From an uncultured Pelagibacteraceae bacterium (GTDB taxonomy: Bacteria > Pseudomonadota > Alphaproteobacteria > Pelagibacterales > Pelagibacteraceae), in NCBI GenBank assembly GCA_902600855.1, contig CACKKY010000006.1:1-34116 (forward strand): a DNA stretch of 34,116 bases, given 5' to 3'. Shown piece by piece: positions 6,373 to 16,086 of this stretch (position 1 is its first letter; every line of letters begins with the position of its first letter). The position numbers and the translations under genes were made by a program. The notes under the pieces are model-generated. The model saw nothing but the letters and a program-made list of their open reading frames with translations, searched no databases and was not told the DNA's origin.

Positions 6373-6906
6373 TTAACTATTTTTATCTTTTAAATAACTT
6401 AACATAGTGTCTACATCACTTAATTTAAAAGGATCGTTGTCGGAACTTTCATTATTTTTACCATCTTCAACAAATAATTTTTCTACTTTACAATTATCTA
6501 TAAATGCAGAATATCTCCAAGATCTCATACCAAAACCTTGCTTAGGTTTGTTTACTAACATCCCCATTTCTTTAGTAAATTTTCCTTCACCATCACCGAT
6601 TGGTTTTACTTTTTTAATATTTTGATCTCTAAACCAAGCATTCATTACAAAAGAGTCATTCACTGAAATACAATAAACTTCGTCTACGTATTTTTTCAAC
6701 TCATCATATTTTTCTTCATAGCCAGGTAATTGTCGTGATGAACAAGTTGGTGTATATGCTCCTGGTAGTGAAAATAAAACTACTTTTTTACCTTTAAATA
6801 AATCTGTAGTGTTAAGATCTTTCCAACTTCCTCCTATCGAACATCCACCTCCTAGATTTTGGTTATCACCTATTCTTGTTTTAAAAATTATTTCAGGAGT
6901 ATTCAT
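6373..6906 (-). CDS. Peroxiredoxin (Prx5/redoxin family)
   Basis: LFSLPGAYTPTCSSRQLPGYEEKYDEL: Prx5-type peroxidatic Cys motif. Confidence 0.9.
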   Translation of the reverse strand: MNTPEIIFKTRIGDNQNLGGGCSIGGSWKDLNTTDLFKGKKVVLFSLPGAYTPTCSSRQLPGYEEKYDELKKYVDEVYCISVNDSFVMNAWFRDQNIKKVKPIGDGEGKFTKEMGMLVNKPKQGFGMRSWRYSAFIDNCKVEKLFVEDGKNNESSDNDPFKLSDVDTMLSYLKDKNS

Positions 6907-10025: not shown

Positions 10026-11195
10026 TTAATTACATCTTTTTTTAATAATACTTAAAATATCTTTTCCCATCATTTTTGAAACTTTAATCCTAGAATCTTG
10101 ATCAATATGAACATTATCAAAAAAATTAATTTTTTCATTTATCTCACTATAATTAATAAAATCATTATTATTAATTACAGATTTTTTCATTTTATTCCAT
10201 AATTTAACTTCTTTATCAGTTTTTGGATTAACGGGCTGGAGTATAGGAATAAAAATTAAATTTTTACATTTATTGGTTTGAATATTTTGGCCAAATAATA
10301 ATTTAGCATTGTTTATAGTTGTCGTATAATTTTCGACAACTTTGTTACTCCAATCATCAAAATCTTTATCAATTAAATTTCTTGAATAATAAATGCCAGA
10401 AATTAGACCTGTTTTATTTTCAATAAATCCAAATATAGAAGAATATTTTAATAAAAAAACTTTAAATATTGGTAAATCATTTTTAATAAAATAATTATAT
10501 GGAAACGATGGTCTTGTATCGTATTGTAAATACTGTATTGATTCATTGTTACCACCATAAAATATTATTACGTCATATGGATAATCAATGTATTTAACAA
10601 GCCTATGTATATGTTGATTATGATTTGAAGAATTAACTGAAAAATTATAGACTATATTTTGTATTCCTTTTTCAGATAAATATTTTCCTAATAATTCTGG
10701 AATTGGTGGGTTACCGGTGTAGCCTGTTGAACCTCCCATAAATGCTATAGACAATGTATTATTATTTATATTTTTTTGTAATAATGGCCCTCTGAACCCA
10801 AGGCTATTGTGATCAAAAACATTGGGTTTATTGCTAAACATATCATAAGGAGTATTAAATCTAATTGTATCTTCATCAAACCAGTGTTTAGAAATACCAA
10901 AACCAAAAAATTTTAATAAAATATCAAAAAAAATTAAAAATAAAAAAATAATTGAAATTTTTTTAAAAAAAGAGAAAACCTTTTTGTTTATAAAATTTAA
11001 ATTATCATTAAGAAAAATTAACTTTATATAGAAAAAAAAAAGAATTACTGTAAAGTCTATTTTTCTAATATTGTTAATTGTTTCATCACTTAATGGAGGT
11101 GTTTTATCAAAGTGTGCTATTGTAAACTCATTAAAAATTAATAAAAAAAGTAGGAGTGAATAATAATTAAAAAGTTTTAAAAATAATTTCTTCAT
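10026..11195 (-). CDS. Membrane-anchored SGNH/GDSL-like hydrolase, function unknown
   Basis: N-terminal TM helices, then AFMGGSTGYTGNPP (block I), IIFYGGNNES (block III), FFDNVHIDQDS (block V DxxH). Confidence 0.65.
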   Translation of the reverse strand: MKKLFLKLFNYYSLLLFLLIFNEFTIAHFDKTPPLSDETINNIRKIDFTVILFFFYIKLIFLNDNLNFINKKVFSFFKKISIIFLFLIFFDILLKFFGFGISKHWFDEDTIRFNTPYDMFSNKPNVFDHNSLGFRGPLLQKNINNNTLSIAFMGGSTGYTGNPPIPELLGKYLSEKGIQNIVYNFSVNSSNHNQHIHRLVKYIDYPYDVIIFYGGNNESIQYLQYDTRPSFPYNYFIKNDLPIFKVFLLKYSSIFGFIENKTGLISGIYYSRNLIDKDFDDWSNKVVENYTTTINNAKLLFGQNIQTNKCKNLIFIPILQPVNPKTDKEVKLWNKMKKSVINNNDFINYSEINEKINFFDNVHIDQDSRIKVSKMMGKDILSIIKKRCN

Positions 11196-11252: not shown

Positions 11253-13325
11253 CTATTCATTAGCTTGTTTTATAGAAAGCTTAACTTTACCTCTATCAAA
11301 ACCAATCACTTTAACTTTAACTTCATCGCCTTCTTTGACAACATCAGTAACTTTAGCAACTCTTTTATCTGCTAGTTCTGAAATATGAACAAGTCCATCT
11401 TGTTTTCCTAAAAAATTTACAAATGCACCAAACTCCATAATTTTCATAACCTTTCCAGAATAAATTTTATTTAGTTCAGCTTTTGCAGTTATATCTTTAA
11501 TCATTTGTAAAGCGATATTTCTTGACTCTTCATCGGGAGCAGCAACTGTTACTACACCTTCATCATTTACATCTACTTTAGCACCCGATTTTTCAACAAT
11601 TTCCCTGATTGTTGCGCCACCTTTTCCAATTACAGCGGCAATATCTTTTTTATCAACATTAACTTGCTCCATTTTTGGAGTGTGTTTCCCAACGTCTTCC
11701 CTTGAGGATGATAATGCTTTGTTCATTTCACCTAAGATATGAATTCTTCCATCCTTAGCCTGGCTTAGTGCCTGCTCCATAATTTCAAAAGTTATACCCG
11801 TTATTTTGATATCCATTTGAAGTGAAGTTATTCCATCTTTAGTTCCTGCTACTTTAAAATCCATATCCCCTAAATGATCTTCATCACCTAAAATGTCTGA
11901 TAGGACACTAAAATCGTTACCCTCTTTGATTAAACCCATTGCAATACCTGCCACTGGCTCTTTTATTGGTACGCCGGCATCCATTAAAGCTAAAGATGCA
12001 CCACAAACAGTTGCCATTGAGGAAGAACCATTAGACTCCGTAATTTCTGATACAATTCTAAAAGTATATGGAAACGCCTCTTTTGATGGTAGTGAGGAAT
12101 TAATTGCTCTCCAAGCTAACTTACCATGACCAATTTCACGTCTTCCAGTTCCAATTCTGCCAGTTTCACCAACTGAAAAAGGGGGGAAATTATAATGAAG
12201 CATAAATCTTTCTCTTTGAAGACCATCTAAACTTTCAATTCTTTGTTCATCATCAGATGTACCTAAAGTAGTAACAACAATTGCTTGTGTTTCTCCTCTA
12301 GTAAACAAAGCAGAACCATGAGTTCTTGGTAATACACCAACTTCACATGAGATTGGTCTTACATCAGATAATCCTCTGCCATCAATTCTATTTTTGTTTT
12401 TAAGAATGTCTGTTCTAACAATTTTCTTTTCTAAATTTTTAAGCTGAGAGTTAACATCAAGATCAGAATAACTTTCATTCTCTTCAAAAAGTTTTTTAGC
12501 TTTGTCAGTAATTTCTGAAATTTGATTTGATCTATCCTGTTTATCTCTTGTTGCAAAAGCTTTTTTAAGATCCTCTGTAAAAGTTTCCTCAAGTTTTTGT
12601 TTAACTTCAGATAAATCTTTTTTCTCAACAGTCCACTCAGGTTTTCTACATTCTTTTGCAAGATCTTCGATCATTTCGATTACAGGAACAAATCCCTCAT
12701 GACCAAATTTAACTGCCGCTAACATTACCTCTTCAGATAATCCTGATGTTTCTGACTCAACCATAAGTACTGCATCTTTTGTACCTGCTACAACTAAATC
12801 TAAGCTTGAATTTTCCAATTCTTCTTTTGATGGATTAAGTATATATTTACCATCAACATAACCTACTCTAGATGCTCCTACAGGACCCATAAATGGCATT
12901 CCTGAAATAGCTAGCGCTGCGGATGATGCAGTGATCGCCAGAATATCTGGTTGATTTTCTTTATCATAGGAAATTACAGTTGGTAACAACTGTACTTCAT
13001 TTTTAAATTCATCAGGAAACAAAGGTCTGATTGGTCTATCGATTAATCTTGAAATTAATGTTTCACTTTCAGTTGGTCTTGCTTCTCTTTTAAAATATCC
13101 ACCAGGGATTTTTCCTCCAGCATAATATTTTTCTTGATAGTTAACTGACAAAGGAAAATAATCCATATCTGGATTAACTTTCTTTGCTCCCACTACCGTT
13201 GCTAAAATAACTGTTTCACCACATGAAGCGATGATTGCTCCGTCTGCCTGTCTTGCTACTTTACCTGTTTCTAAACTTATCTTCTTTCCTGCTACTTCTA
13301 TTTCCTTCTTGTGTACTTTAAACAT
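11253..13325 (-). CDS. pnp: Polyribonucleotide nucleotidyltransferase
   Basis: Full-length PNPase: two RNase PH domains, KH ([15 protein letters not shown]), S1 ([28 protein letters not shown]). Confidence 0.97.
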
Positions 13326-13377: not shown

Positions 13378-13626
13378 CTATTTTCTTAAATTCAATTTCG
13401 ACAGTACATTTTTGTAAGAATCCATTTTTGTTTTCTTTAGGTATTCTAACAATTTCTTTCTTCTATTTACCGCTCTCAATAATCCAACAGACGAATGTTT
13501 GTCTTTTTTGAATTGCTTAATATGTTTAGAGAGAGTTTCAATTTTCTCAGTTAACAAAGCAATCTGAATCTCTGAAGATCCAGTATCTTTATCATGCATT
13601 GCTAATTCTTGTGCCTTTTTATTCAT
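13378..13626 (-). CDS. rpsO: 30S ribosomal protein S15
   Basis: DTGSSEIQIALLTEKIETLSKHIKQFKKDKHSSVGLLRAVNRRKKLLEYLKK. Confidence 0.97.
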   Translation of the reverse strand: MNKKAQELAMHDKDTGSSEIQIALLTEKIETLSKHIKQFKKDKHSSVGLLRAVNRRKKLLEYLKKTKMDSYKNVLSKLNLRK

Positions 13627-13638
13627 GCCTATTTTTTC

Positions 13639-14478
13639 CTATTTATTTGTTTGTTTTATTAAATTTTCTATTTTTTCCGCATACTCAAAAGATTCATCTT
13701 TTCTAAAAAGTAATTTTGGTAAAAACTTCATATCTACTTTTTGTGATAAAATTTTTCTAATTAAAAATGAGTATTCCTTTAAAACACTTATAATTTCCTC
13801 TGCCTTTTCTTCTCTAATCGGGTTATGTCCAAATTCTTTAACTAAAAATTCAGCTGTATCTGCAGCTAAAGTTTGGTTGATTGTTACTGTTACACCCATT
13901 CCAAATAAGTATTTTATTACATTGCTTGATTGCTCAGCCATTCTATTTGCAAGATCTCTTACTGTAATTGCTTCTGGTATGTTGATATCTCTTTTTACAG
14001 GTTTTAAATTTTCCTTTACATCATCTTTAGATAAATTTTTTATTTCTTTTTGTCTTGCTCTCTTTACCGAAGCTAGACTTCTTTCTTTTGCCTCAATTTC
14101 ATCACTTAAAGCTCTTGAAACAGTTAATTTTGTTTCTCTTTTTTTTTCACCAATTTTTAATGTTTTTTTATTTTTAATTCCTTCTTGACCCTTAATTCTT
14201 TTTGTTGCTCTTTGTTCTGCTAATTTTCTTCTTTCAAAATCACTAGTGCCTGAAGATGGCTTTGAAATTATAGATGGTTTTGAAACCATATTTCTATGAA
14301 ATGTAGAGGATGTTTTTGATCTTGGCTGGCTAGATCTAAACGAGCTTCCTTTATTTACAGACCTACTTGCTTTTTTTTCAATTAATGTGGAATTTTTTCC
14401 CTGAGTTTTGGCTAACTCTATATTTTTAATCGATTTCTTGGCTGAGCCCGATATTGTTAGTTTTGTTTTTTTTTCCAT
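13639..14478 (-). pseudogene. Chimeric infB'-'rbfA ORF: IF2 N-terminal region fused in frame to RbfA C-terminal half; IF2 GTPase domain missing
   Basis: Residues ~1-228 read as IF2 N-terminus incl. IF2_N domain (INIPEAITVRDLANRMAEQSSNVIKYLFGMGVTVTINQTLAADTAEFLVKEFGHNP); ~227-279 (EEIISVLKEYSFLIRKILSQKVDMKFLPKLLFRKDESFEYAEKIENLI) align by eye with RbfA C-terminus (...FIR..L......VPEL.F..D.S). No GHVDHGKT G1 motif in any ORF of the window. Confidence 0.82.
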
Positions 14479-14488
14479 AACTCATCAC

Positions 14489-16042
14489 TCAATCTTTATA
14501 AATAATATTTCTAGCAGACATAATTAATTCATCAGCCTCTTCTTTTGATAGTGCAAAATCTTCGAGATAACCCTGAATTTTTACTCTCTCACCTTTTATA
14601 ACATCATATCCGCCTGTTAATTCATCAGATGCAAGGTCAGCAAAATTTTCTAAGGTTAAAATTTTTTGTTCACCTAATGTAACCAACATTCCTGGGGTTA
14701 AACCTTTTAAATTTATAAGACTATCCTCTAATCCTAATTCCTTAATTCTTTCTGAAATATCCTCTTGATCTTTTTGATAAAAATCTTTTGCTCTTTCTAT
14801 CAAAGCTTTAGCTGTATCTTCCTCTATTCCCTCTATTTTAATTAAACTTTCAGTTGTTGTGTCTTTTATATCATCAATAGTTGAAAAGCCTTCTGCAACA
14901 AGTAATTGACCAAGTGTTTCATCTAGCTCTAAATTTTTCACAAAATTCTCTGTTTTTTCTTTAAACTCCAATTGTCTTCTCTCTGAGTCCTCAGCATCAG
15001 TCATTATGTTTATTTCATAATTTAAAAGTTTGGTTGCTAGTCTTACATTCTGTCCTCTTCTACCTATTGCTTTACTTAAATTTTCCTCGGTAAGTATTAC
15101 ATCAAGTTTTTTTCTATCCAAATCTACGTTAACTCTTTGTACCTCAGCTGGTGACAATGCATTTGAAACTAATATAGCCGGATCTTCTGACCAATTAACA
15201 ATATCAATTTTCTCACCCTGAAGTTCGTTAACAACAGCCTGAACCCTAGAACCTCTCATCCCAACACAGGCCCCGACAGGATCTAGAGAAGTATCAACTG
15301 CTTTTACACAAATTTTTGCTCTACTTCCTGGATCTCTTGATGAAGATTTTATCTCAATTAATCCATCATATATTTCTGGAACTTCTTGAACAAAAAGTTT
15401 TTCCATAAATTTTGGATGTGCTCTTGATAAAAATATTTGCTGTCCCCTAGACTCTCTTCTAACATCATAACAGTATGCTTTAATTCTGTCGCCTGCTTTA
15501 ATATTTTCTCTTGGTATTAATTCGTTTTTTTGAATAATAGCCTCTGTTCTCCCAAGATCGGTAATAACATTTCCAAATTCCAATCTTTTAACAATTCCAC
15601 TTAAAATTGTGTCTTTTTTATCTATAAAATCATTGTATTGTCTCTCTCTCTCTGCCTCTCTTACATTAAAACTAATTACTTGTTTAGCTGTTTGAGCTGC
15701 TATTCTTCCAAAATCAAATGATGGTAAAGGTTGCAAAATCTCATCACCTATTGTTTTATCTTTATTTAATTGATTTAAATTAATTGCATCTTCTAGTTTT
15801 ATTTCAGTGTTCGAATTTTCTGGATTTTCAGAAACAATTAATTTTCTAAATATTTCTATATCACCATTATCTCTATTGATAGAAACTTTAATTTCATTAT
15901 CTTGACCAAATTTCGATTTAGCTGCTTTTGCTATACCTGTTTCCATTGAACTAATTATTAATTCTTTATCAATAGACTTCTCTAAAGCTACAGCTTCAGC
16001 AATTCTCAATAATTCTAATTTATCTGCTCTTTTATTTAACAT
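14489..16042 (-). CDS. nusA: Transcription termination/antitermination factor NusA
   Basis: S1/KH signatures (RSRGQQIFLSRAHPKFMEKLF, DPVGACVGMRGSRVQAVVNELQGEKIDIV, AIGRRGQNVRLA). Start taken at MLNKRADKLELL (ATG 16042); the longer ORF start lies in a hairpin. Confidence 0.95.
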   Translation of the reverse strand: MLNKRADKLELLRIAEAVALEKSIDKELIISSMETGIAKAAKSKFGQDNEIKVSINRDNGDIEIFRKLIVSENPENSNTEIKLEDAINLNQLNKDKTIGDEILQPLPSFDFGRIAAQTAKQVISFNVREAERERQYNDFIDKKDTILSGIVKRLEFGNVITDLGRTEAIIQKNELIPRENIKAGDRIKAYCYDVRRESRGQQIFLSRAHPKFMEKLFVQEVPEIYDGLIEIKSSSRDPGSRAKICVKAVDTSLDPVGACVGMRGSRVQAVVNELQGEKIDIVNWSEDPAILVSNALSPAEVQRVNVDLDRKKLDVILTEENLSKAIGRRGQNVRLATKLLNYEINIMTDAEDSERRQLEFKEKTENFVKNLELDETLGQLLVAEGFSTIDDIKDTTTESLIKIEGIEEDTAKALIERAKDFYQKDQEDISERIKELGLEDSLINLKGLTPGMLVTLGEQKILTLENFADLASDELTGGYDVIKGERVKIQGYLEDFALSKEEADELIMSARNIIYKD

Positions 16043-16057
16043 AATTTTATAAGTTGC

Positions 16058-16086
16058 AAAAAAAAATGGGCCAAAGCCCATTTTTT
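16058..16086 (-). terminator. Intrinsic terminator downstream of metK, just upstream of nusA
   Basis: Minus strand AAAAAATGGGC-TTTG-GCCCATTTTTTTTT: 11-bp perfect stem, tetraloop, T9 tract. Confidence 0.85.

Follow-up and report, generated by a model that had tools for sequence, protein, structure and literature searches.

An in-frame join of infB to rbfA in a SAR11 assembly: a deletion that probably arose outside the living cell

Initiation factor 2 (IF2), the product of infB, is essential in bacteria, and a genome assembly in which most of infB has been replaced by the end of a neighbouring gene raises the question of whether the arrangement belonged to a living cell or was produced in amplification or assembly of its DNA. 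We have examined such a case in the window, by which we mean the whole of contig C6 (34,116 bp) from a Pelagibacter-type (SAR11) genome whose 45 contigs total 829,363 bp, with a completeness of 56.9% and very low contamination. The ORF listing of this window gave a single ORF of 279 codons on the minus strand, from 13639 to 14478, in which the 5' part of infB is joined in frame to the 3' part of rbfA.

Pfam and NCBIfam searches and comparison with the separate infB and rbfA genes of relatives confirmed that this ORF, described in the sequence-only reading as an IF2 N-terminus continued by an RbfA C-terminus, is real as sequence. The infB-derived part (13806-14478, minus strand; about 75-78% in closest relatives) consists of the IF2 N-terminal extension and the IF2_N domain (PF04760; residues 168-218, 13825-13977 on the minus strand, E 1.6e-12), and residues 1-234 align to the relatives' infB of about 740 codons. 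The rbfA-derived part (13639-13786, minus strand; 85-90% identical to the closest relatives' rbfA) is the highly conserved C-terminal half of RbfA. Residues 217-279 align to the relatives' separate rbfA of about 120-135 codons, and the RBFA profile matches residues 223-274 at its positions 54-105 of 105 (E 2.5e-9). NCBIfam agreed with Pfam on both assignments. Neither search found the IF2 GTPase and C-terminal domains in the ORF; everything of IF2 from the GTPase domain onward is missing, and there is no full-length RbfA domain, since the start codon and N-terminal half of rbfA are missing.

The genome's relatives in a named collection are Pelagibacteraceae. In a protein search of 100 relatives, the infB part lay in same-genus open frames of mostly about 715-755 aa, with rbfA as a separate match further on. 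In 20 relative regions, full or partial, the gene order was metK, nusA, infB, rbfA, rpsO, pnp wherever the stretch reached. The end of infB and the start of rbfA are overlapping codons (TAATG in the closest relatives), and the two genes are thus in different frames. Among 104 relative loci, which include some genomes twice, from two collections, 95 were intact, seven were cut at contig ends and two carried a single frame break; the infB-rbfA deletion was absent from all 104. The two frame breaks, in the public relatives L057 (infB) and L118 (rbfA), are probably sequencing or assembly errors. We also considered natural infB-rbfA fusions in three relatives (G004, G031 and G044), whose rbfA matches sat in open frames of 735-875 aa; these were rejected because a TAA stop lies between infB and rbfA in all three.

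Relative to these loci, the window lacks one segment of 1,748 bp that spans parts of infB and rbfA. Per-base comparison showed that the spacing of the matching sites was exactly this length in 72 of 75 readable relative loci, and it placed the junction within 13787-13805 (minus strand), in good agreement with the switch previously proposed at 13786-13800: the sequence is infB-like up to 13806 and rbfA-like from 13786 on. Between 13786 and 13806 both genes carry a similar stretch, read in the window as GCAGAGGAAATTATA, and the join site is an imperfect short match, GCAGAGGAAA(TTAT), found in both infB and rbfA. Alignment with the relatives thus bore out an earlier guess of microhomology, in that the deletion is bounded by short matches which in either gene code for about (A)EE(I/T)I. 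The exact in-register run common to the two genes was 2-10 nt as measured in the relatives, the window species having lost one copy. It is the loss of 1,748 bp that brought the frames of infB and rbfA together; by chance, one deletion in three would be expected to preserve the frame.

Both remaining pieces are under ordinary purifying selection. Measured against relatives, the IF2_N domain and the RbfA end have a pN/pS near 0.04, with pN values that fall within the range of means obtained among the relatives themselves. For the basic linker pN is 0.185, compared with a range of 0.064-0.161 among relatives, but at silent sites, too, the window species lies further away. Because both pieces are constrained in this ordinary way, nothing suggests an old fusion. 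An old pseudogene or long-lived stub was considered and rejected on the same grounds, as a useless stub would be expected to drift.

Outside the deletion, five relatives are collinear with the 34-kb window, the common genes being full length and in the same order, and this comparison showed no second rearrangement. The upstream neighbour nusA (14489-16081), full length relative to its counterparts, and the downstream genes rpsO (13378-13626) and pnp (11253-13325) are all intact and lie on the minus strand. A 20-kb sample of another contig of the same genome was collinear with one relative over about 14 kb. Two genes of the window, both on the minus strand, set it apart from the compared stretches of the five relatives: a 389-aa ORF (10026-11195) with no Pfam match and no counterpart there, and a Redoxin/AhpC-TSA-family gene (6373-6906) absent from the same stretch.

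A search of the genome for intact copies of the two genes, as had been proposed, found no full IF2 and no second RbfA in the assembly. The IF-2 domain PF11987 was not found in the whole 829 kb (57% complete), nor was any piece of the lost IF2 segment, except for a single weak match (28%) in a frame of 693 aa that we take to be another GTPase. By itself this absence decides little, as 43% of the genome is missing from the assembly. Of 300 genomes of the genus, 243 show IF2, as do 42 of the 44 that are at least 90% complete; among the matches listed, the IF2-bearing genomes show one IF2 match each.

Several hints make the assembly look like a single-cell amplified genome: it is 57% complete with very low contamination, the smallest contig seen is 2,199 bp, and the best 80 named relatives mostly carry AG- or AH- isolate codes. 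In one published single-cell pipeline, contig ends are trimmed by 100 bp and contigs >2,000 bp are kept (PMC5519541). Chimeras made in multiple displacement amplification (MDA) with phi29 polymerase join at complementary stretches of 2-21 nt; of 475 mapped in an E. coli single-cell study, 85% were inverted and 15% direct, and direct joins of <10 kb numbered 11, compared with 337 inverted joins of <10 kb (PMC1855051, Lasken and Stockwell 2007). Short complementarity was present at 90.9% of the direct joins of <10 kb (PMC1855051). The infB-rbfA join would be of this known but minor kind: two segments of one strand lying <10 kb apart are joined at a short match, here the imperfect match at 13787-13805, and the piece between them is lost relative to the relatives. 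The likeness is not complete, in that our join is seen in a contig whereas the published ones were seen in reads, and direct joins are the minority class. Palindromic MDA chimeras were also looked for, and no long near-identical inverted repeat was seen in sampled stretches of the genome's contigs, a comparison of little power.

The deletion relative to the relatives, its size and site, the fact that it is unique, and the lack of the lost segment in the assembly were all observed directly; we infer that the event arose in amplification or assembly, outside the living cell, with a probability of roughly 0.86. As phi29 amplified the DNA of a single cell, a displaced 3' end that had been copied from one gene would probably have reannealed at the short match in the other, on a strand close by, and extension from it would then skip the GTPase part of infB and the start of rbfA. 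The chimeric molecule, if it came to dominate the reads, would be the one assembled. The intact lost segment would by itself give a contig of about 1.75 kb, too short to pass a 2-kb filter, and this contig would have been dropped if this genome was made with the pipeline that keeps only those >2,000 bp. Several observations weigh against such an origin: direct joins of <10 kb are a rare class (11/475), the contig showed no second rearrangement, the sample of the other contig was collinear over about 14 kb, a chimera reaches the assembly only by dominating the reads, the reading frame survived at one-in-three odds, and the single-cell origin of the genome is itself deduced. A misjoin made purely by the assembler, for which no chimeric DNA molecule need have existed, is a sub-case counted within the above probability, and it appears improbable. 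The two sites do carry a common short near-match, but an exact run of 2-10 nt, as measured in relatives, is short compared with the k of at least 21 at which a de Bruijn join would be made. Misassemblies do occur in single-cell assemblies (PMC5519541). Most likely there is no such fused protein in nature. If the join is an artefact, the case is a caution: amplification or assembly can by itself yield a clean in-frame fusion of two core genes, and a filter on contig size can hide the missing piece.

Short direct matches drive deletions in cells too, and a very recent deletion in the chromosome of the sorted cell, made at the infB-rbfA match by slippage of replication or by end joining, is an unlikely rival, with which the lack of any other rearrangement in the contig agrees. 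The cell would then have lost IF2 and RbfA function and been dying, or would have held a second chromosome copy with intact genes. Against this, the deletion is absent from all 104 relative loci and, IF2 being essential, was probably lethal; a cell of this kind has no descendants, and only chance would lead to its capture. It is very improbable that the deletion is fixed in a lineage whose full infB (and rbfA) lies in the 43% of the genome left unassembled, the stub being free to keep or gain a role. A genome only 57% complete leaves room for a second copy, but such a copy would be new, since the listed IF2-bearing genomes of the genus show one IF2 match each, and the stub pieces are constrained like the relatives' intact genes, which is unexpected for a long-standing stub. 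That a living SAR11 lineage draws its IF2 from elsewhere in the genome and makes the IF2_N/RbfA-C stub as a free protein is less credible still. A real and inherited deletion would imply a bacterium whose IF2 gene lies outside its operon. This would be a surprise, and the evidence points away from it. Thus, of the options that the sequence-only reading had offered, a real deletion with a functional infB elsewhere gained no support, there being no IF2 domain or recognizable lost-segment piece in 829 kb of a genome 57% complete. A strain- or cell-specific lethal or sequencing-derived deletion and an assembly or MDA chimera fit best, the last most of all, in view of a deletion unique among 104 relative loci, a single-cell-like assembly and a known type of MDA junction (PMC1855051).

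The same reading had set the ORF in an operon with truB between rbfA and rpsO. The flanking nusA and rpsO agree with that context, but truB does not: the gene (tRNA pseudouridine-55 synthase) is missing at 13627-13638 of the window and at the same place in relatives L032-L051, and in the compared relatives rpsO starts about 15 nt after rbfA. We therefore rejected loss of truB as part of the deletion event, because the compared relatives are without it at this locus too. None of the five near-complete genomes of the genus that were tested has TruB_N. A wider search, covering 118 members of the order, gave it in no same-genus genome among those listed and in 19 genomes of other genera among the matches listed. 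The absence of truB is normal for the genus and looks like a genus-wide loss.
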